This document shows, piece after piece, positions 10,076 to 25,800 of a DNA stretch of 36,963 bases (position 1 is its first letter; each line of letters begins with the position of its first letter). A program made the translations under genes and the position numbers. This DNA is from Arcobacteraceae bacterium (GTDB lineage: Bacteria > Campylobacterota > Campylobacteria > Campylobacterales > Arcobacteraceae), in the NCBI GenBank assembly GCA_029938215.1, contig JAOZVJ010000001.1:1-36963 (forward strand), in the 5' to 3' direction. The notes under the pieces are model-generated. The model did not search any database, was not told where the DNA came from, and was given only the letters and a program-made list of their open reading frames with translations.

Positions 10076-11218
10076 ATGTCAGCGAAATTAAAACTATTAA
10101 AAAAGGCAACAATCTTATATGTGGAAGATGATATTCTGATTTCTTCAAATTTTATTGAAAACAATGAAGTTTTTTATAAAAAAATTTATGTTGCTCACAA
10201 TGGAGAAGAAGGATTAAATCTTTACAAAAAATATAAAAAGAAAATAAATATTATAATCACTGATTTAAATATGCCAAAATTAAATGGAATAGATATGATA
10301 TCAAAAATTCGTGATATTAGCCATAATATTCCTATTTTTATAATAAGTGCTTTTGGTGATAAAGAAACATTAAAAAAAGCTATAAATCTAGGCATTAATG
10401 GCTTTATAGGTAAACCAGTAGATATGGATACTTTACTCAAAAATATGGAACGAGCACTTGTTCCTATATTTTACAAAAAGGAACTTAAGAAAAAAGATAT
10501 TTTAATTTCTCAACAATCAAAATTTGCCATAATCGGAGAAATGACAGCAAATATTGCTCACCAATGGAGGCAACCTTTAAATTCAATTGGTGTTATTATG
10601 ATGAAATTAGAGTTTGACTGCGAAAACGATTCATTAACAAAAGAGAGTGCATTGGATGTTGCAAATAAAACAACTTCAGTTATACAGCATATGTCAAAAA
10701 CGATAGATGATTTTAGAAATTTTTTCCTACCAAATAAAGAAAAAAAAGAATTTAAAATCAAAACAAACATACAAAGTGTTTTGGCTTTGATGATACCACT
10801 ATTATATAAAAATAACATAGAAATTAAAATTTATGGAGAACAAAATATTTCAGTTTTTGGCTATGAAAATGAATTAAAACAGGTCTTAATCAATATTGTT
10901 AATAATGCAAAAGATGCCATTATAAATAATAAAAAGATTAATAAAGGTCTAATAAAAATAAAAATAAAAACAAACGATAAAAACTTATATTTATTTATTA
11001 GTGACAATGCCGGAGGTGTTCCAGAAGAAATTATGCATAAAATCTTTGAACCATATTATACAACAAAGTTTAAATCACAAGGTACAGGACTTGGCTTATA
11101 TATGTCTAAAATGATAATTGAAAAAAGTATGCATGGTAATCTTGTTATGAAAAATAATAAGAAAGGAGCTGTTTTTTGTATAAGATTGCCGATAAAAATA
11201 AAAAATATGATAAAATAA
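10076..11218 (+). CDS. Receiver-histidine kinase fusion (REC - HisKA - HATPase)
   Basis: This is a 380-residue cytosolic protein with an N-terminal receiver (about 10-125). The receiver has VEDD, the phospho-acceptor Asp63 in TDLNMP and Lys113 in GKPVD. A kinase core follows, with the H-box MTANIAHQWRQPLNS (His162), the N-box NIVNNAKDAI, and the G-boxes DNAGGVPEEI and GTGLGLYMSK. There is no membrane segment, so the signal should arrive through phosphorylation of the receiver or through a partner. A GGAC ribosome site precedes the ATG. It opens the signalling island and is divergent from the cupin gene. The HQWRQP H-box is common in Campylobacterota and differs from the textbook SHELRTP. Confidence 0.9.
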   Translation: MSAKLKLLKKATILYVEDDILISSNFIENNEVFYKKIYVAHNGEEGLNLYKKYKKKINIIITDLNMPKLNGIDMISKIRDISHNIPIFIISAFGDKETLKKAINLGINGFIGKPVDMDTLLKNMERALVPIFYKKELKKKDILISQQSKFAIIGEMTANIAHQWRQPLNSIGVIMMKLEFDCENDSLTKESALDVANKTTSVIQHMSKTIDDFRNFFLPNKEKKEFKIKTNIQSVLALMIPLLYKNNIEIKIYGEQNISVFGYENELKQVLINIVNNAKDAIINNKKINKGLIKIKIKTNDKNLYLFISDNAGGVPEEIMHKIFEPYYTTKFKSQGTGLGLYMSKMIIEKSMHGNLVMKNNKKGAVFCIRLPIKIKNMIK

Positions 11219-11247
11219 AAAAATACATCCAAAAAAGGTAAAAAATT

Positions 11248-11847
11248 ATGACTATAAAATATATGGGTCCAAGACCAATGATATCTCATCATGGGATAGA
11301 GTTCAAAGATGGGAAAGAAGATAAATATGTTTATTTGATGATTGGAATTCAAATACTTAAGGCTATTGATAAAGACTATGGTGAGAATAAAACCTATAGT
11401 TATGATTTATCCACAAAAAGAATATCTGATGACGAAATGCTAAGAGTTATGCAAAAATATGAGCCAACTTTAGAAAAGCTTGCAATAGAAGAAAATCAAA
11501 ACTACAAAAGCAAAATTCAGAAAGAAATTCAAAACATTAAAGAAAGAAACAATTTAAAAGAAGCTGAAAAAGAAGCTTGGACGAATAATCTTGAAATAAT
11601 GAAAGATTATAGAATTCAAAGAGCTATAAATAAAATATACTATATGCATTGTGTCAAAAGTATAAAAGAGATTATAAAAAGAGAAAATATAAAAGAAATA
11701 GATACACCTTTTTATGAAAAATATTGGCATGTTTTACAAACTATACAAGGTAGCTTGGAAGAGGGAAGAAGTTCTTTAAGAACAAATTTAAAAGTTGTTA
11801 CAGACGGTGACAATAAAATGACAGCCAAACTTTTTATAGGAGTGTAA
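11248..11847 (+). CDS. Unknown protein encoded directly upstream of the Na/Pi transporter
   Basis: This 199-residue protein is not recognised. The N-terminus (MGPRPMISHHGIEFKDGKED) contains His-His and is followed by a hydrophobic strand-helix (VYLMIGIQILKAID). The middle (about 65-130) is a long, charged, probably coiled helix rich in Lys and Glu. The C-terminus (LKVVTDGDNKMTAKLFIGV) looks beta-stranded. No signal peptide or membrane helix is seen. An in-frame ATG five codons later is a possible alternative start. The stop is one base before the transporter start, so the two are almost certainly co-translated, and a role as its cytosolic partner or regulator is inferred from that alone. Confidence 0.75.
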   Translation: MTIKYMGPRPMISHHGIEFKDGKEDKYVYLMIGIQILKAIDKDYGENKTYSYDLSTKRISDDEMLRVMQKYEPTLEKLAIEENQNYKSKIQKEIQNIKERNNLKEAEKEAWTNNLEIMKDYRIQRAINKIYYMHCVKSIKEIIKRENIKEIDTPFYEKYWHVLQTIQGSLEEGRSSLRTNLKVVTDGDNKMTAKLFIGV

Positions 11848-11848
11848 G

Positions 11849-13615
11849 ATGATAAAAAAACTCACATATCCATTATTTTTATTAGCTGTTGCGTATTTAC
11901 TTTTTTCTAGCAATGACGCAAAAATCATTATAGCTGGAATTGCCGTATTTTTAATAGGTATGGTATTTATGGAAGATGGCTTTAAGCTTTTTAGTGGCGG
12001 TATGCTTGAAAAAGTTTTGGAAAAAAGTACTTCTAGTGTGCCAAAAGCTATAGGAACAGGATTTTTGGCTACGGCGATTGTGCAAAGCTCATCTTTATTG
12101 ACTATTATAGTTATATCTTTTTTGAGTGCAGAGCTAATCTCTTTAAGTGGTGCTATTGGTGTAATTTTTGGTTCAAATATAGGTACAACAACAACAGCAT
12201 GGATAGTATCTGCATTTGGTGTAAAAATAAAAATAGCACATTATGCGATGCCTATGTTGATTTTTGGTGTAATTTTTAGATTTAATCAAAACAAAACTTA
12301 TCAAGGATTGGGAAATATTTTAGTTGGTCTTGGTTTTGTATTTTTAGGTATTGGATATATGAAAGAAGGCTTTGAAGCAATGAAAGCTGGTCTTGACCTT
12401 GCACAATTTGCAATGGATGGATATCTAGGGGTTTTGATATACATTTTAATAGGAGCTGTTGCAACTATTATTATACAATCCAGTAGTGCGACTATGGCGA
12501 TTATTATTACCGCTTTGGCCACTGGTCAAATAGAATATATAAATGCTCTTTCTTTAGCAATTGGTGCAAATATCGGTACTACAGTAACTGCCATTATTGG
12601 GGCTTTGTCCTCAAATTCAAATGGTAAAAGATTGGCCGTTGCCCATTTTATTTTTAATGTTGTAACTGGAGCAATAGCTATCGTATTTTTATATCAATTA
12701 GCGGATTTTGTTGATATATTTTCTGCAAAATTAGGAATAGGCGACACTGATTACGCTATGAAATTAGCTTTATTTCATACAGTATTTAATGTTATTGGAG
12801 TTTTGGCAGTTTCTCCATTTACTGATAAACTTGTAATTTTTCTAAAAGGTTTATTTAATGAGGAACAAAAAGATGTATCAAGAGCAAGATATTTGGATAA
12901 GGTTGTAATACAAATGCCAGAAGCCGCAATAGAAGTTCTAAAAAAAGAGATTATTCATCTTTATGATAATTCCACAGAAGTTTTATCGCACGCATTGTCT
13001 TTACATAGACATAATTTTATTGGAGTGGATGATGATGAAATAGCGGCAATTGTTAGAAAATCTAATAAAAAAATAGATACAAATATAGATGAATTTTACA
13101 AAAAAAGAATTAAATCTTTATATGGTGATATTATAAATTATGCAACAATTTCAGAAGAAAATATGAGCATTGAAGAAAAAAGTAAAGTTTATTCTTTAAA
13201 AAATGCTTGTAGAGATATAGTTGAATCCATTAAAGATGTAAGGGAATTACAAAAAAATATCAATAAGTTTATTAAAAGTAAAAATCAATATATAAAAACA
13301 GAATATGATTATCTTAGAGGAGAGATTGCAAAAACTCTTGATGGTATACATGACTTAAGAAATGGTGTTGATGATTTTGATGCATTAGCAGGAATAAAAT
13401 TATTAAAACAAAGTCTTGACAAACTTGATATGATAGAAAATGGTAGGATTGATGACTTGATAAGAAACAATAGTATTGAGCCAAAAATGGCAACCTCTCT
13501 TATAAATGACAGTGCATTTGCTTATGATATATGCAAAAAGCTTATTGAAGCTGCTGCTGTTTTATGGATAGAAAATGAAAAAATTAAACAACTAGGAGAA
13601 GATGATGAAAGTTGA
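11849..13615 (+). CDS. Na+/phosphate symporter-type membrane protein with C-terminal PhoU-like domain
   Basis: This 588-residue inner-membrane protein is of the Na/Pi cotransporter (NptA/YjbB-like) family. It has two inverted repeats, each with the family QSSS motif: IVQSSSLLT (about 78-86) and IIQSSSATM (about 209-217). Each repeat also has a glycine-rich FGSNIGTTTTA or IGANIGTTVTA segment. Hydrophobic helices fill roughly residues 8-330. Residues 340-588 are soluble, helical and charged like PhoU, which usually modulates transport on the cytosolic side. The likely substrate is phosphate or a similar oxyanion with sodium. It sits inside a signalling gene cluster, between an unknown protein and a lysine-rich mini-protein that overlaps its end. 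Confidence 0.88.
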   Translation: MIKKLTYPLFLLAVAYLLFSSNDAKIIIAGIAVFLIGMVFMEDGFKLFSGGMLEKVLEKSTSSVPKAIGTGFLATAIVQSSSLLTIIVISFLSAELISLSGAIGVIFGSNIGTTTTAWIVSAFGVKIKIAHYAMPMLIFGVIFRFNQNKTYQGLGNILVGLGFVFLGIGYMKEGFEAMKAGLDLAQFAMDGYLGVLIYILIGAVATIIIQSSSATMAIIITALATGQIEYINALSLAIGANIGTTVTAIIGALSSNSNGKRLAVAHFIFNVVTGAIAIVFLYQLADFVDIFSAKLGIGDTDYAMKLALFHTVFNVIGVLAVSPFTDKLVIFLKGLFNEEQKDVSRARYLDKVVIQMPEAAIEVLKKEIIHLYDNSTEVLSHALSLHRHNFIGVDDDEIAAIVRKSNKKIDTNIDEFYKKRIKSLYGDIINYATISEENMSIEEKSKVYSLKNACRDIVESIKDVRELQKNINKFIKSKNQYIKTEYDYLRGEIAKTLDGIHDLRNGVDDFDALAGIKLLKQSLDKLDMIENGRIDDLIRNNSIEPKMATSLINDSAFAYDICKKLIEAAAVLWIENEKIKQLGEDDES

Positions 13616-13826
13616 AAAATTATTTAAAAAAGTAGAAGAGTTTTTTGGAATGAATAAGAAAAAACAAAAAACAAAAAACAACAAAAAAGAAAAATTAAAA
13701 GATTCTTTAAACGATAAGATATCCTCTTTAAAAAAGAAAATAAAAAATACAAACAATAAACAAAAAAAATACAAATTGAAAGAAGAACTAATTGTTTTAA
13801 TTAAAATAAACAAAAAATTAAAATAA
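13605..13826 (+). CDS. Lysine-rich small protein overlapping the transporter gene
   Basis: This 73-residue basic protein has about 27 lysines. It opens with an amphipathic segment (KVEKLFKKVEEFFG), then an Asn/Lys-rich stretch, and ends with a predicted helix (KEELIVLIKINKKLK). AGGAG at 13594-13598 is six bases before the ATG at 13605 and only three before the ATG at 13602, so I prefer the second ATG. The gene overlaps the transporter end by 11 bases, suggesting translational coupling. The family is unknown. The amphipathic start could bind membrane or the transporter's PhoU-like tail, or the basic part could bind nucleic acid. These are guesses. Confidence 0.6.
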   Translation: MKVEKLFKKVEEFFGMNKKKQKTKNNKKEKLKDSLNDKISSLKKKIKNTNNKQKKYKLKEELIVLIKINKKLK

Positions 13827-13851
13827 TTTTTTGTTTATTAGACAATAATTT

Positions 13852-15360
13852 ATGATTGATGTAAAAAAACTAAAAGTTCTTACAAAAAAATTTAATGTTC
13901 TTTATGTTGAGGATGAAGAACAAATGAGAGAAAGTCTTATGGCTTATCTTGTAAAAATATTTAAAAATGTTAAAACAGCAAAAGATGGACAAGAGGGTCT
14001 AGAACTTTATAGGCATGAAAAATTTGATATAGTTATTACGGATATACAAATGCCAAATCTTAATGGTATAGAGATGGCAAAAAAAATAAAAGAATTAAAT
14101 CATAAACAAGAAATTATGATAGTTTCTGCCTATACTGAAATAAATTATTTTATTGAGTCTATTAAAATTGGTATTAGTGGTTACATAATAAAACCTGTAG
14201 ATTTTTCACAAATGAATGAAGAAATTTATAAAATTGTTTATAAGCTTAAAAAATTTAATGAAAATAAACTTTATGGACTTCATCTAGAAGAACTTATTGA
14301 AGAAAGAACAAAAGAAAAAGAAAGTTTGCAAGCACAAATTATAGAGAATCACCAGCAAACTCTTTTTGCCTTGGTTGGTATGATAGAAAAACGAGATTCT
14401 TATACAGGTGGACATAGTCAAAGAGTTGCAAAATATTCGATGTTAATAGCAAAAGAATTGGGATGTGCATACGAAGAGTGTGAAAAGCTTTATCAAGCGG
14501 GAATACTTCATGATATAGGCAAAATATCAACCCCTGATTCTATACTTCTTAAGCCTGGGAAATTAAGTGACATAGAATATAAATTGATACAAGAGCATGT
14601 AGAAAGTGGCTACGATATGCTTAAAAAAATATATATGTATAAAGAATTGGCTAAAATTATTCGTTGTCATCATGAAAGATACGATGGAACTGGATATCCA
14701 AAGGGATTAAAAGGCGATGAAATTCCGTTTCTTTCACGAATTATGATGGTTGCTGATGCGTTTGATGCAATGACAACAAATCGTATATATAAAAAAAGAA
14801 AAAGCATAGATGAAGCACTTAAAGAAATAAAAGAACTTTCAAAAATTCAATTTCATCCAGAGATTGCGGATGTTTCATTTGAAGCTCTTAATAAAATTTC
14901 TATTGAAAAAAATATTTCACAACTTCCCAAAAACGAACTAGAAAAAGAAAGATTTTCTTATTTTTATAAAGATCAGACTGTTAATACTTATAATAAAAGT
15001 TATTTTGAATTAATTCTAAACAAAGATTGTCAAGAAAAAAAATACAAATACTTAAAAGCCTTTTATTTTCATGGGCTTACGAAGTTTAATGAAAAGTATA
15101 GTTGGAACGAAGGAGATGAAATCCTTGCAAAATTTGTTTCTATTTTAGAAAAAATATCCTCAAAAGCTTTGATATTCAGGGTTCATGGCGAAGCATTTGC
15201 TGTATTACTTGAAGAAAATATACAATTAAAAGATGATTTTTTTAAAGATATAGATTTTTTAAAAAATAGTGATATTAGAATTAGCAAAAAAAATATTAAT
15301 CTTTTAGAAAAAAAAATATGTTCTTTTGAAGATTTAGAAAAATGCATACACTTCTATTAA
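13852..15360 (+). CDS. Receiver - HD-GYP phosphodiesterase with degenerate GGDEF-like C-terminus
   Basis: This is a 502-residue response regulator that probably degrades cyclic di-GMP. The receiver (about 10-125) has VEDEE, phospho-acceptor Asp64 in TDIQMPN and Lys in IKPVD. A coiled linker (140-170) leads to the HD-GYP domain (about 172-345), with HSQRVAKYS, ILHDIGKIS (His220, Asp221), HHERYDGTGYP and VADAFDAMTTNR, so the metal and GYP residues are intact. Residues about 370-500 resemble a GGDEF domain: NEGDEILAKFVSIL is followed by FRVHGEAFAVLL, where GGDEF should stand. The cyclase motif is lost, so this part may bind nucleotide or regulate. The start has a weak ribosome site. It follows the Lys-rich gene by 25 bases. 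Confidence 0.88.
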   Translation: MIDVKKLKVLTKKFNVLYVEDEEQMRESLMAYLVKIFKNVKTAKDGQEGLELYRHEKFDIVITDIQMPNLNGIEMAKKIKELNHKQEIMIVSAYTEINYFIESIKIGISGYIIKPVDFSQMNEEIYKIVYKLKKFNENKLYGLHLEELIEERTKEKESLQAQIIENHQQTLFALVGMIEKRDSYTGGHSQRVAKYSMLIAKELGCAYEECEKLYQAGILHDIGKISTPDSILLKPGKLSDIEYKLIQEHVESGYDMLKKIYMYKELAKIIRCHHERYDGTGYPKGLKGDEIPFLSRIMMVADAFDAMTTNRIYKKRKSIDEALKEIKELSKIQFHPEIADVSFEALNKISIEKNISQLPKNELEKERFSYFYKDQTVNTYNKSYFELILNKDCQEKKYKYLKAFYFHGLTKFNEKYSWNEGDEILAKFVSILEKISSKALIFRVHGEAFAVLLEENIQLKDDFFKDIDFLKNSDIRISKKNINLLEKKICSFEDLEKCIHFY

Positions 15361-15373
15361 ATAGGCTTTGTCG

Positions 15374-15406
15374 TATAATCTTTTGCTAACAATTTTTGTG
15401 CTAACA
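15374..15406 (+). promoter_or_regulatory. Candidate promoter and repeated motif upstream of the hybrid kinase
   Basis: TATAAT at 15374-15379 lies 66 bases before the hybrid kinase start, in an 85-base gap after the HD-GYP gene. Just after it, TGCTAACA occurs twice in direct orientation (15384-15391 and 15399-15406), 15 bases apart start to start. No good -35 is seen. The repeats could be an operator, but no binding protein is known. Confidence 0.35.
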
Positions 15407-15445
15407 TAACTTAACTAAATAATTTTTAAAAGTGAGGACGCAAAA

Positions 15446-18400
15446 ATGATTCAGCGATTAAAAGATTTTAATGTTGGTACAAAGATTCTAATTCCTGTGA
15501 TAATTATGGCTATATTTGGTGCTACTGTTAATGTTTATGATGTTATTTCACAGATGAAAGGTTTAGCAAAACAAAATAGTTCTACTTCACTCAATATGCT
15601 AGCAGATTCAATTTTTATCTCATTAAAAAATGCCATGAATACTGGTGATACAAATATTATAAAAAAAGTAGAAAGTGAGAGTAGAGAAAAAATAAGCGGA
15701 TTAAAAAAACTTCAAATTGCTAAGAGTGAGAAGATGATTAAATTTTTTAATCTTAAGCAATCAGCTACTGCGGACAAAAATATTTTAGAAGTTTTTAAAA
15801 CAAAAAAAGATGCTTTAATAGATGAAACAAAAAATAAAAAACATACAATTAGAGTATTGAAAGCTATGAGAGCTACAAAAGAATGTTTAAAGTGTCATAC
15901 TAATGAAAAAGAAGGCGATATAATTGCCGTAATTGATTTAACTTTTAATTTGGATAAGTCTGATTCTTTAATATCAGAATCATTAAGAAATTTAACTTTG
16001 GTAATATTTCTATTGCTAATAATAGCGTTGCCAATAGTATACATGATAATAAAAAGAGGGGTAGTAATACCGCTTAATAATTTTCAAGAAGGTCTTTTGG
16101 ACTTTTTTAAATATTTGAATAGAGAAGAAAAGAATGTAAAGCTTTTAGACCATGACTCAAATGATGAGATAGGGATAATGACAAAAGTTATAAATGAAAA
16201 TATTGAGAAAACAAAAACAAATATTGAAAAAGAAAATAAAAATAATTGGACAAAAGAAGGAATCAGTAAGTTAAATAAAAAATTATCAGGTGCTACTGAT
16301 ATTGTATTTGTAAGTAATAAAGCTATAAGTTTTTTATGCAGTTATCTAAAAGCAGGTATTGGTGCGTTATATGTTTACAATGAAGATGAAGAAATATTAA
16401 GTCTAAATGGAAGTTATGCTTTTGTGCAAAGAGAAGACTTGTCAAATAATTTTAAATTAGGGGAAGGAACAGTTGGTCAAGTAGCACTTGAAAGGTCACC
16501 AATTCAAATTGAAAATATTAAACGCACTCAAATGAGTATAGTTACAGGCACCACAAATGAACCTCCTATAAACACATATACCTTTCCGCTTATTTATCAA
16601 AAAACACTTTTTGGTGTAATTGAAATAGGTTCTACGGAAATATTTAATGAGGCACAAAGAGAGTTTTTTGAACAATCAAACCAAATAATAGCAACAGCGT
16701 TATTTACAGTTATTCAAAATACTAGAGTAAAAGAACTACTTACAAAATCACAAAAAGTAAATAAAAAGCTTAAAAAACAACAAAAAGAGCTGGAGTTCAA
16801 AAATACACAAATGCAAGAACAGCAAGCTCAACTTGAAGAAGCAAATTCTCAGATGCAAGAACAGCAAGCTCAACTTGAAGAAGCAAATTCTCAGATGGAG
16901 GAACAACAAGTTCAATTAAAAGAATCTGAAAAAGAGTTAAAAACTCAAAATAGTCAATTGTTAGAATCAAAAAAAGAGTTAAATCTAAGAGCAAAAGATT
17001 TGGAAAACTCAAATAAATACAAAAGTGAATTTTTAGCAAATATGAGCCACGAACTAAGAACACCACTAAATTCAATAATCTTATTATCAAGTATGCTTAA
17101 AGAAAATAGAAAACATATCTTATCTGAAGATGTAGTAAAAAAAGCAAAAATAATAAATAGCTCAGGAGAAGATCTTCTAAGACTTATCAATGATGTTTTG
17201 GATCTCTCAAAAGTAGAAGCTGGAAAAATGAATATTCTTGTAGAAGATTTTTCATCGAAAGATTTTGCAGAACATATTAAAGATTTATTTGAACCATCAG
17301 CACAAAAAATTGGTCTAAAATTTATTGTAGAAGACAAATACAGCAATACTATATCAAATGACAAAGACAAATTGTCTCAAATAATAAAAAATTTTTTATC
17401 AAACTCTTTAAAATTTACAAGTGAAGGTGAAATAAAATTAATAATTGAATCAGAAAAAGAAAACAATATTAAAATTTCCGTAAAAGATACAGGCATTGGA
17501 ATACCTAAAGAAAAACAAGATTTAGTTTTTAAAGCATTTCAGCAAGCAGATGGAAGTACAAGCCGTAAATATGGTGGCACTGGATTAGGACTGTCTATAA
17601 CAAAAGAGCTAACGGGACTTTTAAAAGGAAAGATAGACCTCGAATCGGAAGAGGGGAAAGGGAGTGTATTTAGTATAATCATTCCAAATTTAAAAAAAGA
17701 AAAAGAAACACCTGAATTGCCAAAAAAAATTCCATCAAAACCGATACAAAATCCTCAACAAAAAAAACAACCGCAAATTATTAAAGAGCCAGAAATAATA
17801 GATGATTCTAAAAAAATTATCGAAACAGACAAGCCTTTTTTAATAATAGAAGACGATGAAGGTTTTGCCTTAACTTTAAAAAGCGTTATAAACGACAATG
17901 ATGATTTGGTACTTATTGCTACAACAGGAAGCCAAGGAATTAAACTTGCAAAAAATAATAATAATATTCAAGGTATTTTATTAGACCTTGGTCTTCCTGA
18001 TATTGATGGTGTTGAAGTATTAAAAGAACTAAAGTCAAATATTAATACAAGAAAAATACCTGTATATATACTTTCAGGTCGCGACAATCAAAGTCAAACA
18101 AAAATAATGGGAGCTGTCGGATTCAAACAAAAACCATTATCAAATGATGATTTAAAAATCGTATTTGAAGATTTTGTTAAATTTAATGATAAAAAAATAA
18201 AAGATTTATTAATAGTAGAAAATGATTCTATTCAAAGAGAAGCTATGATTGAATTTATAGGAAACAAAACAATAAAATCAAAAGGGGTTGATTCTATAAA
18301 AGAAGCTATAAAAGAACTGCAAAAAAATATTTATGATGCGGTAATTGTTGATTTAATATTGCACGAAGGAAGCGGACTTGAAGTGTGCGAATATATTAAA

Positions 18401-18985
18401 AAAAATGAAGTGAATATACCAATTATTGTTTATACAGGTAAAGAATTAACACAAAAAGAAGAAAATGAAATAAAAAAATATACAGATTCTATTATTGTAA
18501 AATCTATAAATTCACAGAATCGTCTTCTTGATGAAGTAGATATGTTTTTACATAGAGCCAAAGCACCTGCCGCAACAAAAAATTGTCAAAACTCTTCCGT
18601 AAATGATATATCTTTTGATGATAAAAAAATATTAGTAGTTGATGACGATATGAGAAATACTTATGTTCTTATGGAAATTTTAGAAGAAAAAGGTGCGATC
18701 GTTGTAACAGCAGAAAATGGTAAAGAAGCCATTGAAGTGCTAGGCGATAATCTAGACACAAGCATAATACTTATGGATATTATGATGCCAGTTATGAATG
18801 GATATGAAGCAACCAAACTTATTAAAGCAAACGATAAAACAAAAGATATTCCAATTATTGCTGTAACAGCAAAAGCTATGAATAAAGATAAGGAAAAATG
18901 TTTAGAAGTTGGTGCGAATGATTTTTTAACAAAACCATTAAACTTGGATACTTTTGTTGGCGTTGTAAAGGCTTGGATAAAATAA
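15446..18985 (+). CDS. Hybrid sensor kinase: haem-type periplasmic sensor, GAF, coiled coil, kinase, three receivers
   Basis: This is a 1179-residue inner-membrane hybrid kinase. TM1 is at about 13-33 and TM2 at 183-203. The extracytoplasmic part between them ends in ECLKCHTNE, a haem-c CxxCH motif (Cys147, Cys150, His151) as in DUF3365/Tll0287-like sensors. A HAMP-like linker follows, then a GAF-like domain (about 275-425) and a Gln/Glu-rich coiled coil (430-525). The kinase has H-box NMSHELRTPLNS (His535), N-box NFLSNSLKFT, and G-boxes DTGIGIP and GTGLGLS. Three receivers follow, with Asp847, Asp969 and Asp1111; the first two are divergent and the last is canonical (LMDIMMPVMNGY). A histidine phosphotransfer domain is not seen. 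It leads a block with the CheB-CheR gene three bases downstream. Confidence 0.9.
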   Translation: MIQRLKDFNVGTKILIPVIIMAIFGATVNVYDVISQMKGLAKQNSSTSLNMLADSIFISLKNAMNTGDTNIIKKVESESREKISGLKKLQIAKSEKMIKFFNLKQSATADKNILEVFKTKKDALIDETKNKKHTIRVLKAMRATKECLKCHTNEKEGDIIAVIDLTFNLDKSDSLISESLRNLTLVIFLLLIIALPIVYMIIKRGVVIPLNNFQEGLLDFFKYLNREEKNVKLLDHDSNDEIGIMTKVINENIEKTKTNIEKENKNNWTKEGISKLNKKLSGATDIVFVSNKAISFLCSYLKAGIGALYVYNEDEEILSLNGSYAFVQREDLSNNFKLGEGTVGQVALERSPIQIENIKRTQMSIVTGTTNEPPINTYTFPLIYQKTLFGVIEIGSTEIFNEAQREFFEQSNQIIATALFTVIQNTRVKELLTKSQKVNKKLKKQQKELEFKNTQMQEQQAQLEEANSQMQEQQAQLEEANSQMEEQQVQLKESEKELKTQNSQLLESKKELNLRAKDLENSNKYKSEFLANMSHELRTPLNSIILLSSMLKENRKHILSEDVVKKAKIINSSGEDLLRLINDVLDLSKVEAGKMNILVEDFSSKDFAEHIKDLFEPSAQKIGLKFIVEDKYSNTISNDKDKLSQIIKNFLSNSLKFTSEGEIKLIIESEKENNIKISVKDTGIGIPKEKQDLVFKAFQQADGSTSRKYGGTGLGLSITKELTGLLKGKIDLESEEGKGSVFSIIIPNLKKEKETPELPKKIPSKPIQNPQQKKQPQIIKEPEIIDDSKKIIETDKPFLIIEDDEGFALTLKSVINDNDDLVLIATTGSQGIKLAKNNNNIQGILLDLGLPDIDGVEVLKELKSNINTRKIPVYILSGRDNQSQTKIMGAVGFKQKPLSNDDLKIVFEDFVKFNDKKIKDLLIVENDSIQREAMIEFIGNKTIKSKGVDSIKEAIKELQKNIYDAVIVDLILHEGSGLEVCEYIKKNEVNIPIIVYTGKELTQKEENEIKKYTDSIIVKSINSQNRLLDEVDMFLHRAKAPAATKNCQNSSVNDISFDDKKILVVDDDMRNTYVLMEILEEKGAIVVTAENGKEAIEVLGDNLDTSIILMDIMMPVMNGYEATKLIKANDKTKDIPIIAVTAKAMNKDKEKCLEVGANDFLTKPLNLDTFVGVVKAWIK
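16811..16894 (+). repeat. Two perfect 42-bp tandem copies within the kinase coiled coil
   Basis: Units 16811-16852 and 16853-16894 are identical and encode MQEQQAQLEEANSQ twice. A diverged third copy (MEEQQVQLKES) follows. The unit is 14 residues, two heptads, so copy-number change would lengthen the signalling helix without breaking its register. Confidence 0.9.
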
Positions 18986-18988
18986 AAT

Positions 18989-20650
18989 ATGATACATATT
19001 GTGCAAAAAAAAGCTATATTTAAAATTCTTATAGATGGAAATTGTGATGCAAACGATGCAAAACAACTTCTTAAGTTAATAAAGAAAAATAATAAACTAG
19101 AAATATCTTTTATTAATGTAGCTTTTTTACCTGTAAATACAATAAAAGCATTATCGATATATCAAAAAAATTTAAAATTAAATACTGATAATAAATTTCT
19201 TTGGACATATTTAAAAAAAATTTCAATTGATATTTCACTAAATTATATTTCTCAAAAACTTATCAAAAAACAAGCCAAGATAAAAGCTATAGCTATAGGA
19301 GGTAGTGCTGGATCTTTAGGAAGTATGATTAAAATTTTAAAAAATTTACCTTTTACAGATATTTCTGTATTTATAGTAATGCATATTTTACCTAATAAAA
19401 AAAATAGTCTAACTCAAGTGTTACAGCAATGTACAAATTACACAGTAAAAGAAGCAAAGCATGGGGAAAAAATCAAAAAAAATTATGTGTATGTAGCATC
19501 TGCTGATATGCATATGGTCGTAGAAGGTGGTTGCATTTACCATTCAAAAACAAATAAAATTAATTTTTGCAGACCAGCAATAGATATGCTTTTTAAAACA
19601 TTAGCATTAGAATACAAAGAATCATTACTCGCAATTCTTACTTGTGGATATATGGATGATGGTAGCCGATCTTTGGCAGATATTAAAGAAAATGATGGGG
19701 AATCCATTATTCAAAACCCAAATGAATGTGAAGCAAATGAGATACCTTTAAATGCAATAATTACAAAAAATCATACTCAAATTTTAGGAATTAAGGAAAT
19801 TTCTAATTATCTTAAATTGCAATTAAATTCTTTTGTATGCTATGAAGAGAATATTCCTGATTTTATAAATAATATTTATAAAACATATGGATATGATTAT
19901 AAAAATTATGATAAAAAATCCATAACAAGAAGAATAAAAATTTTACAAGAAGAATTAGGAATACCTACATTTAAAGAATTTGCTAATTTAATTTTATCCA
20001 ATAATGAAATGTTTGAGTTGCTTTTTAAAAAATTGTCCATAAATGTAAGTGAATTTTTTAGAAATCCATTAATTTTTAAACAAATAAGAGAAGAAGTTGT
20101 TCCGACACTAGAAACATATCCGCATATAAGAGTTTGGTGTAGTGCTTGTTCTGAAGGACAAGAGCCATATTCTGTTGCAATGCTTTTAGATGAAATGGGA
20201 TTATTGGAAAGATCAATTATTTATGCAACAGATTTTAACAAAACTATTTTAGAACAAGCAAAAAATGGTATTTTTTCAAATGAAGAATATAAAAAATTTA
20301 AAAAAAATTATATAAAAAGCGGGGGAATAAAAAATTTCAATAAGTGGTGGATAAAAAATGAACATTATGCAGAAATAGCTCCACTTATCAAAGAAAAAAT
20401 TCAATTTTTTCAACACAATTTAGTAACAGATGGAGAAATAAATGAATTTCATATAATTTTTTGCCGAAATGTTTTGATTTATTTTGATGAAAAACTACAA
20501 GAAAAAGTATTTAAACTTATTCATAGTTCTTTAATAAGAAATGGATTTTTAATTTTAGGAGAAAGTGAAACTGTAAAAAATAAAAATGGTTTTGAAAAAT
20601 TTAATATTTCTTCAGAAAATAAAATATTTAAAAAAATAGGAGAAGCATAG
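18989..20650 (+). CDS. CheB-CheR fusion (protein-glutamate methylesterase and methyltransferase) with STAS-like N-terminus
   Basis: This 553-residue protein has three parts. Residues 1-90 look like a STAS-type domain. The CheB methylesterase follows (about 97-270), with GGSAGSLGS (Ser106), VMHILPNK (His132) and CGYMDDGSRSL (Asp224), so the catalytic triad appears intact. The CheR methyltransferase (about 290-550) has SEFFRNP, the SAM-binding VWCSACSEGQEPYSVAML, and FCRNVLIYFD. In chemotaxis these enzymes reset receptor methylation. Fusions of this kind are also found beside sensor kinases, where the target is not a classical receptor. No methyl-accepting protein lies in the window, so the substrate may be a coiled coil of a neighbouring kinase (inference). 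It abuts the next gene with no spacer. Confidence 0.88.
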   Translation: MIHIVQKKAIFKILIDGNCDANDAKQLLKLIKKNNKLEISFINVAFLPVNTIKALSIYQKNLKLNTDNKFLWTYLKKISIDISLNYISQKLIKKQAKIKAIAIGGSAGSLGSMIKILKNLPFTDISVFIVMHILPNKKNSLTQVLQQCTNYTVKEAKHGEKIKKNYVYVASADMHMVVEGGCIYHSKTNKINFCRPAIDMLFKTLALEYKESLLAILTCGYMDDGSRSLADIKENDGESIIQNPNECEANEIPLNAIITKNHTQILGIKEISNYLKLQLNSFVCYEENIPDFINNIYKTYGYDYKNYDKKSITRRIKILQEELGIPTFKEFANLILSNNEMFELLFKKLSINVSEFFRNPLIFKQIREEVVPTLETYPHIRVWCSACSEGQEPYSVAMLLDEMGLLERSIIYATDFNKTILEQAKNGIFSNEEYKKFKKNYIKSGGIKNFNKWWIKNEHYAEIAPLIKEKIQFFQHNLVTDGEINEFHIIFCRNVLIYFDEKLQEKVFKLIHSSLIRNGFLILGESETVKNKNGFEKFNISSENKIFKKIGEA

Positions 20651-21856
20651 ATGAAGGCAAACATATTAATCGTAGATGATATTCAATCAAACCTAGATAC
20701 TTTGAATTTTATGATAGATGATATAGAATTTGAAGATGGAATTAGTGTAAATGTTATAAAAGCAAAAAGTGGAAATGAAGCTTTAAATTTAGCTACTAAA
20801 TATAATTTAGCACTTATAATTCTAGATATACAAATGCCAGAAATGGATGGATTTGAAGTTGCTAGATTTTTAAAAAAAAGTATAAAAACAAAAGATGTTC
20901 CAATTATGTTTTTAACTGCTGCATATAAATCAGAAGAAATGAGAAATTATGGTCTTCGAGTTGGCGCTTTTGATTATTTTTTAAAACCAATTGATCCATT
21001 GCTTTTAGTTCCAAAAATAAAACTTTATATACATTTTTATTTGCTTAATTCAAAATTAAAAGACTCAAATGCTATCTTAGAAGAAAAAATAAAAGAAGCT
21101 ATTGAAAAAAATTCTCAAATAGAATCAAAGCTTTATCAAGCAGAAAGGCTTGCATCAATTGGAGAAATGATAGGAAATATTGCTCACCAATGGAGACAAC
21201 CGCTTGCAATCATATCCATGTGGGCAAATAATATTGTTGCAGATGTAGATATGGAAGAAGTAGAAAATGAAAATTTACGAAAATATTCAAATAATATTGT
21301 TGAACAAACAAAACGCTTATCTCAAACAATAGAGGATTTTAGAGGATTTTTTGCACCAAATAAAGAAAAAAATAAATTTTTACTAGAAAAAAGTATAGAA
21401 AAAATTATAACTCTTTTATCTGCTTCATTTAAAGCACATAATATTGAAATAATAAAAGATATAGAAGACATTCAAATAACTGCTTTAGAAAATGAACTAA
21501 TACAGTCTATTTTAAATATTATGAAAAATGCAAAAGATGTACTGCTTACACTTGCAAAAGATAAAAAAAGATTAATTTTTATAAAAACATATCAAAAGCA
21601 AAATATAGCAGTTATTGAAATAAAAGATAGCGGAGAAGGAATATCAGAAGAAATAATAAAAAAAATATTTGAACCATATTTTACCACAAAACATAAGTTT
21701 CAAGGCACAGGCGTAGGCTTATATATGGTAGAATCTATTGTTACAAAGCATTTGGGAGGAAAAATTTCTGTTCAAAATTTAGAATATGAATATGAAGATA
21801 AAAAATATAAAGGTGCAAAATTTATTATTGAGATACCAACTGGAAATAAACAATGA
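20651..21856 (+). CDS. Receiver-histidine kinase fusion
   Basis: This 401-residue cytosolic protein has a receiver at about 3-120 (VDD, phospho-acceptor Asp59 in LDIQMPEMDG, Lys112 in LKPID). A short coiled linker (140-165) follows, then a kinase with GEMIGNIAHQWRQPLAI (His179), NIMKNAKDVL, DSGEGISEEI and GTGVGLYMVE. AGGAG in the end of the CheB-CheR gene serves the ATG at 20651. The stretch after the H-box (MWANNIVADVDM) is almost identical, in DNA too, to the next kinase. The last four bases overlap that next gene (ATGA), so production of the two is probably coupled. Confidence 0.9.
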   Translation: MKANILIVDDIQSNLDTLNFMIDDIEFEDGISVNVIKAKSGNEALNLATKYNLALIILDIQMPEMDGFEVARFLKKSIKTKDVPIMFLTAAYKSEEMRNYGLRVGAFDYFLKPIDPLLLVPKIKLYIHFYLLNSKLKDSNAILEEKIKEAIEKNSQIESKLYQAERLASIGEMIGNIAHQWRQPLAIISMWANNIVADVDMEEVENENLRKYSNNIVEQTKRLSQTIEDFRGFFAPNKEKNKFLLEKSIEKIITLLSASFKAHNIEIIKDIEDIQITALENELIQSILNIMKNAKDVLLTLAKDKKRLIFIKTYQKQNIAVIEIKDSGEGISEEIIKKIFEPYFTTKHKFQGTGVGLYMVESIVTKHLGGKISVQNLEYEYEDKKYKGAKFIIEIPTGNKQ

Positions 21857-23334
21857 AAAAAATATTTGAAAGAAAAATTGAAAAATTGAAAAATTATTAT
21901 ATTGGTATTTTAATTATTTCAACATTTATTATTGTTTTATCTTTAGGCTGGAATATTTATAATGAATCGCAACATTATAAAAATGCTGCCCTAGAACATG
22001 CAAAAAATTCATTTATTAAAAACATTATGTTTAGGGACTGGGTTGCTTCTCATGGTGGAGTTTATGTTTTTCCAACAAAAAGAACACCTCCAAATCCATA
22101 TCTTTTTCATGTTAAAGATAGAGATTTGATTACAACTGGGGGTAAAAAATTAACACTTATGAATCCTTCTTATACGATAAGGCAACTTATGGAAGAACAC
22201 AAAGGAATGTATGGAGCAAAAGGACATATTACAAGTTTAAAACTTTTAAATCCAAAAAATAAGCCAAATAACTGGGAAAAAAAAGCATTAAAAATATTTG
22301 AAAAAGGAAAGAAAAAAGAATTATATGAATTTTTATCAAAAGATGGTGAAGAGTATGTATTTTATATGAAAGCATTATCAACAAAACAGTCTTGCCTAAA
22401 ATGCCACGAACATCAAGGATTTAAATTGGGAGATACAAAAAGTGGTATTTTTATTTCAATTCCTATGAAAAAATATTATGATGATATGTATAGCGCAATT
22501 TATGACATTATAACAATATATCTTATTTTTTATATTATTGGTATAGCATGTTTAATCTATATTTATAAGAATTTAAAAGCATCCTTGCTTAGGCAAGAAA
22601 AGCTAATAGAGGAAAATCGTAAAAAAGATGAAATAATGCTCGCACAATCTCGCCATGCTGCAATGGGAGAAATGATAAGTATGATAGCACATCAATGGAG
22701 ACAACCAATTGCTGTTATAGCAATGTGGGCAAACAATATTGTTGCAGATGTAGATATGGACGAGATGAATAGTAAAAATTTTAAAGACTATGCCGATAAT
22801 ATTGTTAATCAAACGAAACATCTTTCCAGTACTATTGATGACTTTAGAAATTTTTTTAAGCCAAACAAGGAAAAAGAAAATATTGTCTTAAAAGATATTA
22901 TGGAAGAGTGTCTTGCCGTTGTTAATAAAAGTTTAGAAAATAACAATATACAAGTTGAAAAAAACTATAAAAGTCAAAATAAAATAAAAATACACTCAAG
23001 AGAACTTGTGCAAGTTTATATTAATTTAATAAAAAATGCCAAAGATGCTTTAATAGAAAACAATATAAAAAATGCTAAAATTACTATAAACATATATGAA
23101 GATAATGATAATATTATTACAGAAATAAGAGATAACGCAAAAGGAATAGATGAAGATATAATTTTAAAAATATTTGAACCATACTTCACAACAAAAAGTG
23201 TTCAGTCTGGAACTGGTTTGGGACTTTATATTAGCAAAATTATAGTTGAAAAACATCTACACGGAATAATAGGCGTAGATAATATAAATAATGGAGCTTG
23301 TTTTACTATTTTATTGCCAAAGGAAAATAAATGA
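21853..23334 (+). CDS. Membrane histidine kinase with haem-type (DUF3365/Tll0287-like) sensor domain
   Basis: This is a 493-residue inner-membrane kinase. TM1 is at about 15-34 and TM2 at about 216-238. The extracytoplasmic domain between them has FRDWVASHGGVYVF and a CLKCHEHQG motif (Cys181, Cys184, His185), the marks of DUF3365/Tll0287-like domains expected to carry c-type haem. Redox, oxygen or nitric oxide sensing is therefore plausible, though the ligand cannot be read from sequence. The kinase part has GEMISMIAHQWRQPIAV (His280), NLIKNAKDALI, DNAKGIDEDI and GTGLGLYISK. It has no receiver of its own, but a stand-alone receiver gene overlaps its end by four bases and is the obvious partner. 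Confidence 0.9.
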   Translation: MKKIFERKIEKLKNYYIGILIISTFIIVLSLGWNIYNESQHYKNAALEHAKNSFIKNIMFRDWVASHGGVYVFPTKRTPPNPYLFHVKDRDLITTGGKKLTLMNPSYTIRQLMEEHKGMYGAKGHITSLKLLNPKNKPNNWEKKALKIFEKGKKKELYEFLSKDGEEYVFYMKALSTKQSCLKCHEHQGFKLGDTKSGIFISIPMKKYYDDMYSAIYDIITIYLIFYIIGIACLIYIYKNLKASLLRQEKLIEENRKKDEIMLAQSRHAAMGEMISMIAHQWRQPIAVIAMWANNIVADVDMDEMNSKNFKDYADNIVNQTKHLSSTIDDFRNFFKPNKEKENIVLKDIMEECLAVVNKSLENNNIQVEKNYKSQNKIKIHSRELVQVYINLIKNAKDALIENNIKNAKITINIYEDNDNIITEIRDNAKGIDEDIILKIFEPYFTTKSVQSGTGLGLYISKIIVEKHLHGIIGVDNINNGACFTILLPKENK

Positions 23335-23729
23335 ATGAAGAAATAAAAGCCTTAAAACAAAAAGTCAAAGATATGAAGGTTATTTATGTTGAAGACGAGG
23401 ATGATATGAGAATAGGCACCGAAATGTTTTTAAATAAATTTTTCAACTTTGTTGAAATTGCAGAAAATGGTCAAGATGGATTACAAAAATTTAAAGATGG
23501 TGATTTTAATATAGTTTTTACAGATATTCTTATGCCAAAAATGAATGGTTTGGATATGATTAGAAATATAAAAAAATATAAAAAAAATATTTTTTGTATT
23601 GCTCTTACGGCATCTGAAATTAATAAAGAAAATATTGAAAATAATGTAAATTTATATTTTAGAAAACCTATTTCTTACAATAATATGATTGTTATTATGA
23701 AAGAAATTATTAAAAAGTTTGATTTATAA
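23331..23729 (+). CDS. Stand-alone receiver (single-domain response regulator)
   Basis: This 132-residue receiver has no output domain. The acidic pocket is VEDEDDM, the phospho-acceptor is Asp65 in TDILMPKMNG, and the conserved Thr/Ser and Lys are in ALTASE and FRKPIS. It is probably a phosphorelay carrier or a CheY-like effector that binds a partner. The ATG overlaps the stop of the haem-sensor kinase and has AAGGA upstream, so it is very likely that kinase's partner. An amphipathic N-terminal helix (EEIKALKQKVKDM) could aid docking. Confidence 0.88.
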   Translation: MNEEIKALKQKVKDMKVIYVEDEDDMRIGTEMFLNKFFNFVEIAENGQDGLQKFKDGDFNIVFTDILMPKMNGLDMIRNIKKYKKNIFCIALTASEINKENIENNVNLYFRKPISYNNMIVIMKEIIKKFDL

Positions 23730-23741
23730 TAAGTTATTATT

Positions 23742-24944
23742 GTGAAAAAAAAAATAAAAAATCTAATAGAAATTACAAAAAATTTAACAGTTTTGTATGC
23801 TGAAGATGATGATTTACTTAGAGAAAGTTCATATAGTTATTTAAAAAAAATATTTTACAAAGTAATTTGTGTTGAAGATGGAGAAAAAGCACTTGATCTT
23901 TACAAAAAAGAAAAGTTTGATATAATAATTACTGACATAGAAATGCCAAATATGAATGGGCTTGAAATGTCCAAAATGATAAAAAAAATAAATCCAAATC
24001 AAGAGATTATAATTATTTCAGCATATACAAATTCTGATTATTTTATAAATTCTATTGAAATAGGTGTTAGTGGCTATATCCTAAAACCTACGGACTTGTT
24101 GCAAATGAGTGAAGTTTTATATAAAACTTCACTAAAAATATTAGAACATAACAAAGTTATAGAGTATGAAAAATTTTTAGAGCAAAGAGTAGAAGAAGAA
24201 ATTGAAAAAAATAAAATAAGTCAAAAAATATTATTTGAACAATCCAAAATGGCAGCAATGGGTGAAATGCTTGAATCTATAGCACATCAATGGCGACAAC
24301 CTTTATCTGTCATCACAACGGCAGCTAGTGGAATGAAAATACAAAAAGAATATGAAATGCTAACGGATGATAGTTTTATTGAATCTACAGATGCTATTAT
24401 TTCTTCAGCACTTCATTTATCAAATACAATTGATGACTTTAGGGACTTTTTTAAACAAAATAAAAGAAAAGAACTTTTTTCTTTAAAAAATTCTTTTCAT
24501 AGAGCTACCAAACTTCTTAGTTCCAAATTTAAAAATAGAGAAATTAATATTATAGAAAATATTAAAGATGTAAAGATTATGGGATTGAACAATGAGTTGG
24601 TTCAGGTATTTATGAATATTTTAAATAATGCAAAAGATGCGCTAGAAGAAATAAAAGAGGGAAAAAGATTTATTTTTATCAACATACATAAAAAAGAAAA
24701 TAATATCGCAATAACCATAAAAGACAATGGCAATGGAATACCAGATAAAATTTTAAATAAAATATTTAAATCTCATTTTACGACAAAATCTAACAAAGAT
24801 GGTACAGGCATTGGACTTTATATGGCAAAACAAATAGTTGAAGATCATTTTAAAGGAAATTTAAAAGTTAAAAATGTTAACTATGAATATAAAGGCAAAA
24901 AATATAAAGGCGCAGAATTTTTATTAAATATTCCAGCAAATTAA
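23742..24944 (+). CDS. Receiver-histidine kinase fusion (GTG start)
   Basis: This 400-residue cytosolic protein has a receiver at about 14-130 (AEDDD, Asp65 in TDIEMPN, Lys in LKPTD). A coiled linker (140-165) leads to a kinase with GEMLESIAHQWRQPLSV (His182), NILNNAKDALEE, DNGNGIPDKI and GTGIGLYMAK. The receiver closely resembles that of the HD-GYP protein at 13852, sharing SAYT, SGYI and KP.D at the same positions, so the two are likely paralogues. The only plausible start is the GTG at 23742, which has no clear ribosome site; coupling to the gene 12 bases upstream is likely. It ends the kinase series. Confidence 0.87.
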   Translation: MKKKIKNLIEITKNLTVLYAEDDDLLRESSYSYLKKIFYKVICVEDGEKALDLYKKEKFDIIITDIEMPNMNGLEMSKMIKKINPNQEIIIISAYTNSDYFINSIEIGVSGYILKPTDLLQMSEVLYKTSLKILEHNKVIEYEKFLEQRVEEEIEKNKISQKILFEQSKMAAMGEMLESIAHQWRQPLSVITTAASGMKIQKEYEMLTDDSFIESTDAIISSALHLSNTIDDFRDFFKQNKRKELFSLKNSFHRATKLLSSKFKNREINIIENIKDVKIMGLNNELVQVFMNILNNAKDALEEIKEGKRFIFINIHKKENNIAITIKDNGNGIPDKILNKIFKSHFTTKSNKDGTGIGLYMAKQIVEDHFKGNLKVKNVNYEYKGKKYKGAEFLLNIPAN

Positions 24945-24992: not shown

Positions 24993-25021
24993 TTGACATT
25001 AAAACATATTATATATATAAT
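24993..25021 (+). promoter_or_regulatory. Consensus sigma-70 promoter for the Lys/Ala-rich protein
   Basis: An exact TTGACA (24993-24998), a 17-base spacer and an exact TATAAT (25016-25021) lie 62 bases before the start codon. A second TATAAT lies at 25027-25032. Promoters this close to consensus are unusual in this AT-rich window, so strong constitutive transcription is expected. Confidence 0.75.
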
Positions 25022-25082
25022 ATCTATATAATATTACTTTTTTAATGAAGAGTTTTATTAAATTTAAAAGAGGAGTCCATAT

Positions 25083-25235
25083 ATGGCAAAATTAACAAAA
25101 AAAGAAGCTAAAAAATTAGCAGCGAAAAAAGCAGCAGCAAAAAAGAAAGCAAAAAAGAAAATAGCGGCGAAAAAGAAAGCGAAAAAGAAAAAAGCAAAAA
25201 AAAGCAAAAAAGCAAAAAAAAGCAAAAAAAAGTAA
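25083..25235 (+). CDS. Lysine/alanine-rich 50-residue protein, histone H1-like composition
   Basis: The 50 residues contain 29 Lys and 13 Ala, with Ser near the end; the sequence starts MAKLTKKEAKKLAAKKAA and ends KKSKKAKKSKKK. There are no aromatic or Cys residues. AGAGGAG lies a normal distance before the ATG, a consensus promoter precedes it and a hairpin follows the stop, so it is a self-contained, probably highly expressed gene. The composition recalls the tails of eukaryotic H1, Hc1 and AlgP-type bacterial proteins, so DNA or RNA compaction is the first guess. Polyphosphate binding is another. Because poly-AAA and GCA codons can arise from simple-sequence drift, function is unproven. 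Confidence 0.72.
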   Translation: MAKLTKKEAKKLAAKKAAAKKKAKKKIAAKKKAKKKKAKKSKKAKKSKKK

Positions 25236-25247
25236 TTTAAATTTTCT

Positions 25248-25274
25248 GCAAGCAATTATTTAATAGTTGCTTGC
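25248..25274 (+). terminator. Terminator after the Lys/Ala-rich gene
   Basis: The repeat GCAAGCAA, an 11-base centre that can partly pair, and TTGCTTGC form a hairpin 12 bases after the stop codon. It is followed by a T-rich tract (TTAAATTTTAT). Confidence 0.65.
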
Positions 25275-25422: not shown

Positions 25423-25800
25423 ATGTCAAATGTGTTGGTTGTAGATGATTCAAGAATTATGAGAATAAATATCAAAAAAATGCTTGAATCAATTGGACAT
25501 AAAGTCATAGCAGAAGCAACAAATGGATATGAAGCAATTGAAAAATATAAGCAAAATTGTGAAGAAATTGATTTGGTAACTATGGATATCACAATGCCAA
25601 TAATTAATGATATTAAAGATGGTATTGATGCTGTCAAACATATAATAAAATTTGATTCAAATGCAAAAATTATTATGCTAACATCTCTTGGTGAACAACA
25701 AGAAGTTATTAAAGCTGTTGAAGCTGGTGCTTCTAATTATCTCTTAAAACCTATTCAAGTTGACAAATTAACAGAAGCTTTATCTAAGCTTAACATATGA
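25423..25800 (+). CDS. CheY-like single-domain response regulator
   Basis: This 125-residue receiver starts MSNVLVVDDSRIMR. It has the acidic pocket Asp8/Asp9, phospho-acceptor Asp55 in TMDITMP, Thr87 in MLTSLG and Lys109 in YLLKPIQ, the full set for phosphorylation. The VVDDSRIMR opening is typical of CheY-family regulators that act on motility or another protein. I chose the ATG at 25423, which has AGGA seven bases upstream; a longer frame from a GTG at 25381 adds 14 residues with no family match. It is separated from the Lys/Ala-rich gene by a terminator and about 150 bases, so it probably has its own promoter. Confidence 0.9.
   Translation: MSNVLVVDDSRIMRINIKKMLESIGHKVIAEATNGYEAIEKYKQNCEEIDLVTMDITMPIINDIKDGIDAVKHIIKFDSNAKIIMLTSLGEQQEVIKAVEAGASNYLLKPIQVDKLTEALSKLNI

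Follow-up and report, generated by a model that had tools for sequence, protein, structure and literature searches.

The 36,963-nt window analyzed here, which covers positions 1 to 36,963 of contig JAOZVJ010000001.1 from an Arcobacteraceae genome (G000; 1.73 Mb in 145 contigs, same genus as its relative G001), contains a genuine single-gene transcription unit for a 50-aa Lys/Ala-rich protein, and of the 104 Arcobacteraceae genomes, at least 19, spread over eight genera, carry a gene of this family, with two copies in G094. The explanation we favor, to which we give a little less than an even chance as a whole, is that this highly expressed unit makes a histone H1-like polycation, consisting of tail only, that binds a polyanion, with polyphosphate as the favored partner. 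The window features bearing on this explanation are as follows:

24993..25021, forward strand: sigma-70 consensus promoter (−35 TTGACA at 24993-24998, 17-nt spacer, −10 TATAAT at 25016-25021)
25016..25038, forward strand: conserved −10/initial-transcribed motif TATAATnnCTATAnnnTATTACT, which recurs at the equivalent genes of relatives
25029..25060, forward strand: hairpin near the mRNA 5′ end, predicted by folding from a transcription start inferred at ∼25028
25071..25075, forward strand: Shine-Dalgarno sequence AGGAG, 7 nt ahead of the ATG at 25083
25083..25235, forward strand: gene for the 50-aa Lys/Ala-rich protein, identified by its ORF, homologs, and codon test
25248..25274, forward strand: intrinsic terminator, a stem-loop with a 12-pair stem, then a T-rich tail
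23742-24944: hybrid sensor kinase gene forming the upstream flank of the mini-gene (Pfam-confirmed)
25423-25800: CheY-like receiver gene forming the downstream flank (PF00072 in Pfam)
ending at 13615: Na/Pi cotransporter gene, upstream (PF02690)

The promoter, ribosome site, 50-codon ORF (29 Lys, 13 Ala), and terminator were all present where a sequence-only reading of this stretch had placed them, and the promoter was the sole 12/12 site in the 6 kb scanned. The full composition of the mini-protein is K29 A13 L2 S2 M T E I, giving a net charge of ∼+28. The same reading had set the gene beside a CheY-like gene and downstream of a phosphate-type transporter; the CheY-like gene does lie directly downstream and the cotransporter upstream, but the latter is 11.5 kb away. 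Around this cotransporter, positions 10076-24944 are crowded with hybrid kinases, response regulators, an HD-GYP-type/GGDEF regulator, and a Tll0287-like sensor.

Across the 1.73-Mb genome, the pattern TTGACA-N16-18-TATAAT occurred 22 times, compared with two occurrences of a reversed control pattern, and two of the 22 matches fell within long ORFs. Besides the mini-gene, exact-consensus promoters serve groES, the leading gene of the S10 operon, genes for DnaJ-like and isocitrate dehydrogenase-like proteins, and three tRNA clusters (protein names were read by eye from the translations). Exact consensus thus marks strongly expressed genes in G000, which supports high expression of the mini-gene as an indication, rather than a measurement, of level. 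The proposal of a self-contained and strongly expressed gene was borne out to this extent: the gene is probably expressed at a high level, and the mini-protein would then be abundant.

Relatives were recruited from the 104 Arcobacteraceae genomes by DNA-pattern searches in place of protein searches. A relaxed N-terminal DNA pattern recovered relatives of 52 aa in G001 and 54 aa in G094, the latter genome belonging to a different genus; a Lys/Ala pattern with two mismatches, applied to all 104 genomes, recovered ORFs of 57-104 aa, each with a clear ribosome site; and members in G119 and G122 were added later. Family members are stand-alone ORFs of 49-104 aa with 46-63% Lys and a good ribosome site, and the window ORF shares the properties by which the family was delimited (49-104 aa, ≥45% Lys, a start of M[AS]K, and a good ribosome site). 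The homolog survey suggested by the sequence-only reading therefore shows that the gene is not an orphan in Arcobacteraceae. The count of 19, which includes G011, whose ORF holds masked bases, is a lower bound, and absences are soft, since the search patterns are not exhaustive and several of the genomes are drafts; by these patterns, the large genus g11 had no carrier.

Several other candidates were set aside. The unrelaxed N-terminal pattern (MAKLTKKE) matched a Lys-rich ORF in G000 only, the pattern KKA[AST]AKK matched mostly topoisomerase I-like tails, and most of what matched on viral contigs was phage protein or unrelated low-complexity sequence. Lys-rich ORFs of 30-35 aa with good ribosome sites were observed in Vibrio xiamenensis (two identical copies) and Aeromonas lusitana; these share little with the family beyond the start and were excluded from it, though they are possibly analogous:

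L090:4283-4375, L102:302-394, and L098:5330-5437: Vibrio/Aeromonas Lys-rich mini-ORFs

When protein searches were run on 60 genomes, the mini-protein found itself at 44 bits and nothing else convincing, and whole-genome, plasmid, Pfam, NCBIfam, and PDB searches likewise returned only the mini-protein itself or nothing convincing. Neither Pfam nor NCBIfam holds a profile for the family, and none of the papers in the collection searched paired Arcobacter with "lysine-rich". The protein-search misses are attributable to composition correction and thus represent a blind spot, not proof of absence. Low-complexity letters alone cannot argue homology, so the homology argument is carried by the promoter and the gene neighborhood.

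The window gene has a control region of the form TTGACA-17-TATAATnnCTATAnnnTATTACT followed by a hairpin, which defines what we call group A. The exact-consensus promoter with its 17-nt spacer and TATAATnnCTATAnnnTATTACT with zero mismatches were found in G000, G092, G027, and the second copy in G094, and G011 had the exact promoter and TATAATnnCTATAnnnTATTACT with two mismatches, such that promoter and leader are kept across genera g1, g7, g9, and g10. Outside these loci, the fetched sequence (1.5 Mb, partly redundant) contained no TATAATnnCTATAnnnTATTACT match at zero or one mismatch; for two mismatches, simulation put the chance rate at ∼7 per 20 Mb of strand. A hairpin starting from the inferred transcription start was predicted in all five group-A leaders (z −1.4 to −2.8), with the G000 stem formed by partly different bases from those of the other leaders. 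Hairpins at the 5′ terminus commonly shield mRNA from decay, and the leader hairpin may stabilize the mini-gene mRNA.

A second promoter group, from g6, g14, g18, and g19, has the form TTGAC[A/T]-17-TAnnAT and is positioned ∼27-31 nt upstream of the ATG. In the g6 members, CTATATTTTA adjoins the −35 of the Lys-rich gene in two or three copies with a 20-bp period, forming a probable activator site on one helix face:

L260 at 1383 (reverse strand), L261 at 1195 (reverse strand), and L258:1744: direct repeat of CTATATTTTA, directly abutting the −35

The CTATATTTTA element led to an additional member, of 49 aa in G119, which had escaped the coding pattern; found through a promoter element, this member is an independent verification that promoter and ORF go together. 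The closest proteins, those of G001 and the first G094 copy, are without the conserved promoter, and no Pho-box was identified.

The gene neighborhoods of relatives point repeatedly to phosphate. A PsiE-like (phosphate-starvation) gene lies 0.04-4 kb from the Lys-rich gene in 10 loci plus G119 (11 of ∼19), and is directly adjacent in several, including G019 (37 bp) and the second G094 copy (135 bp). One PsiE-like protein scored over the Pfam PF06146 cut-off (28.4 vs. 23.9 bits) and another just below it; four others that were tested had no Pfam match at 0.001, and the remaining PsiE-like proteins were tied in by a home-made profile from six of them. In g6, g14, g18, and g19, the PsiE-like gene belongs to a more extensive conserved block that also holds ADP-ribosylglycohydrolase-like, DnaJ-like, and radical SAM genes; the linkage there thus counts as approximately one event, with G092 and G094 as separate arrangements. 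In G092, the Lys-rich gene is followed by two small ORFs, two PsiE-like genes, and two PstC/PstA-type permease genes. PsiE linkage is frequent in the family but does not define it: the window had no match to a PsiE-like gene, and none of the PsiE, pst, or PPK genes was found near the mini-gene at this locus.

In G001, a polyphosphate kinase 2 (PPK2) gene (299 bits) is located directly downstream of the Lys-rich gene. This PPK2 gene (L139:3309-4234, reverse strand; G001:C3) is split into two frames, with the break near its 5′ end and one internal stop in the match, which could be a draft assembly error or true decay. Almost all Arcobacteraceae genomes carry PPK2 genes; four PPK2 matches were found in 7 of the 19 carriers vs. 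2 of the 85 other genomes (Fisher p = 7e-5), a post hoc comparison that is uncorrected for phylogeny, relies on incomplete carrier detection, and is clear within genera only in g1. The association between PPK2 copies and carriers is suggestive. PPK2 genes in Arcobacteraceae are often arranged as tandem pairs (G013:C9, G002:C6, G003:C1, and others), and a second, distinct pair is present in some genomes (G000:C13, G001:C12, G094:C221).

A second conserved Lys-rich protein of 81-84 aa, with an acidic N-terminus, a C-terminus of the form ...KRKEAKKKKAKKKxKLKKNHNK, and no Pfam match, is encoded within ∼150 bp of the mini-gene in three genomes of g6, whereas a fourth genome has it near psiE:

L287:1557-1811; L280:8056-8301 (reverse strand); L282:8225-8470 (reverse strand); L288:1990-2235 (reverse strand): genes for the 81-84 aa Lys-rich protein

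To judge by its sequence, a 50-aa, +28 Lys/Ala peptide cannot hold a folded domain, a catalytic site, or obvious sequence-specific binding. Helical amphipathicity was not above that of shuffled sequences for nearly all family members, and single-sequence AlphaFold returned one straight helix at residues 6-49 (pLDDT 95), a prediction that is uninformative for so charged a peptide and that had no fold match. In the mechanism we favor, the consensus promoter would drive high expression, perhaps with the 5′ hairpin stabilizing the mRNA, and the +28 polycation would neutralize charge, binding and condensing a polyanion; this partner would be inorganic polyphosphate, and perhaps also the nucleoid, as for the Pseudomonas AlgP tail, in cells facing changing phosphate supply.

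In Pseudomonas aeruginosa, AlgP is reported on polyphosphate granules, which require its H1-like KPAA tail for even spacing; in cells devoid of polyphosphate kinases, the protein appears to interact with the nucleoid as a whole (PMC9239181). In Escherichia coli, YihI and RNase R bind polyphosphate via lysines in their disordered Lys-rich regions (PMC12345225). Because of these precedents and the PsiE, pst-type, and PPK2 neighbors in relatives, polyphosphate, with or without the nucleoid, is favored over DNA or RNA alone, although only modestly. The suggestion of a nucleoid, RNA, or polyphosphate binder in the sequence-only reading was thus upheld in part: the composition fits a polyanion binder and the neighbors in relatives back a phosphate or polyphosphate link, but both the binding and the target are what we infer from them. 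The stronger proposal, that this is a dedicated, highly expressed polyphosphate counter-ion or granule family, often psiE-linked, that packages polyphosphate in Arcobacteraceae, is possible but doubtful.

Lys-rich tails bind DNA and RNA as readily as polyphosphate. A miniature H1-like nucleoid protein with a DNA-compacting or DNA-bridging function in some growth phase, and without a special polyphosphate role, would suit the resemblance in composition to H1 and AlgP tails, the strong promoter of a class used by abundant housekeeping proteins, and the variable length of 49-104 aa, which is expected of a disordered DNA-neutralizing tail. We nevertheless consider such a protein unlikely, since it leaves the repeated PsiE, pst-type, and PPK2 neighbors unexplained and since these patterns did not detect the gene in most of the 104 genomes, g11 included, so that it is not a core nucleoid component. 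Still less probable is a polycation associated with RNA or ribosomes that stabilizes either, for instance during stationary phase, as other small Lys-rich accessory proteins of the ribosome do. In its favor, the promoter class is shared with the S10 operon and tRNA genes in G000, and the polyphosphate-binding Lys-rich proteins of E. coli are translation-related (PMC12345225); however, no ribosomal or translation gene was found as a conserved neighbor, and there was no Pfam or NCBIfam match, though such models are weak for a Lys/Ala composition.

Alternatively, the functional product could be the transcript itself, an RNA of ∼250 nt that has a conserved 5′ hairpin and a terminator and in which the Lys-rich frame is incidental to A-rich sequence. 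The leader is kept at the DNA level, and A-rich, T-poor sequence stays open easily, as in the antisense frame of 63 aa that is likewise open at the mini-gene. Substitution patterns, however, favor a protein. Between G120 and G121, 20 codons carried synonymous and six carried non-synonymous changes; of the 31 differences, 24 fell at third positions (p = 6e-7). Third-position excess was also found in four further pairs of the same genus, namely G121/G123, G024/G121, and G024/G120 (p < 1e-4) and G120/G123 (p = 0.012); these pairwise p-values are non-independent, and the repeats make alignments uncertain. The excess extended to G000 vs. the first G094 copy (p = 0.0025) and was marginal for G000 vs. 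G001 (p = 0.051), whereas G092 vs. the second G094 copy had none, and the very close pairs among G015, G089, and G031 had too few changes for an excess to show. The dominance of synonymous changes indicates that the frame is translated and selected. A broken frame or neutrally evolving codon positions in close relatives, which the sequence-only reading had named as grounds for discarding the gene, were not encountered; frame and ribosome site were intact in the relatives examined, lengths differed by whole codons, and there was no Rfam match, making an RNA product very improbable.

Gene order around the mini-gene is not conserved even relative to G001, and a synteny check of the thrS and cheY loci of relatives found the Lys-rich gene absent there. 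The previously suggested tie to the adjacent CheY-like gene finds no support, as G001, the closest relative within the genus, carries its mini-gene elsewhere and its own cheY and thrS loci are without it. A local partner of adjacent two-component genes (cheY-like, hybrid kinases), such as a signaling-island scaffold, is just as improbable as an RNA product: the mini-gene does lie among histidine kinases and response regulators in the window, in G001, and at the first G094 copy, but the kinases differ each time, such genes are plentiful (65-103 candidate regions for one CheY query in G000 and G001), and most other carriers have no adjoining kinase.

Highly cationic mini-proteins escape annotation profiles, composition-filtered similarity searches, and trypsin proteomics, so abundant ones can be overlooked; direct DNA search exposes the family-wide set, and the conserved promoters make its regulation testable. 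If the mini-protein binds polyphosphate, it would be a minimal natural polyphosphate-condensing protein and a candidate PsiE partner, and if it binds DNA, it would be a new minimal nucleoid protein. Polyphosphate packaging, if true, would provide a genetic handle on polyphosphate granule assembly in Campylobacterota and on the role of PsiE.

Among known systems, the C-terminal KPAA domain of AlgP (AlgR3) and the homologous PhaF tail are, like the mini-protein, Lys/Ala-dominated, H1-tail-like polycations. However, AlgP joins a 124-aa N-terminal domain to KPAA repeats, whereas the mini-protein has no proline and no other domain; all 50 residues are Lys/Ala sequence, without KPAA repeats or a separate N-terminal alpha-helical domain, and homology cannot be claimed. 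The PASK or Lys-rich polyphosphate-binding regions of yeast Nsr1 and Top1 and of E. coli YihI and RNase R are similarly disordered Lys-rich stretches, but PASK motifs are acidic and Ser-rich, and the mini-protein has one Glu, no Asp, and two Ser in 50 aa. Topoisomerase I C-terminal tails in Arcobacteraceae (host enzyme identified by eye) have KKAAAKK/KKTTAKK repeats of similar composition, but they contain Pro and Thr and are part of a large enzyme, whereas the mini-protein has a stand-alone gene; long H1-resembling Lys/Ala/Pro/Thr repeat tails were observed on topoisomerase I-like proteins in L127, L128, L129, L121, L122, and L126. Chlamydial Hc1/Hc2 and the eukaryotic H1 tail are, like the mini-protein, small, very Lys-rich, and probably polyanion-condensing, and Hc2 varies in length through repeat number (PMC2848022). 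Hc1/Hc2 nevertheless differ in lineage and gene context, and neither they nor any other Pfam family matched the mini-protein up to E = 1, a test that HMMER composition correction weakens. A set of stand-alone, tail-only Lys-rich mini-proteins across one bacterial family is a new version of this known kind of polycation.
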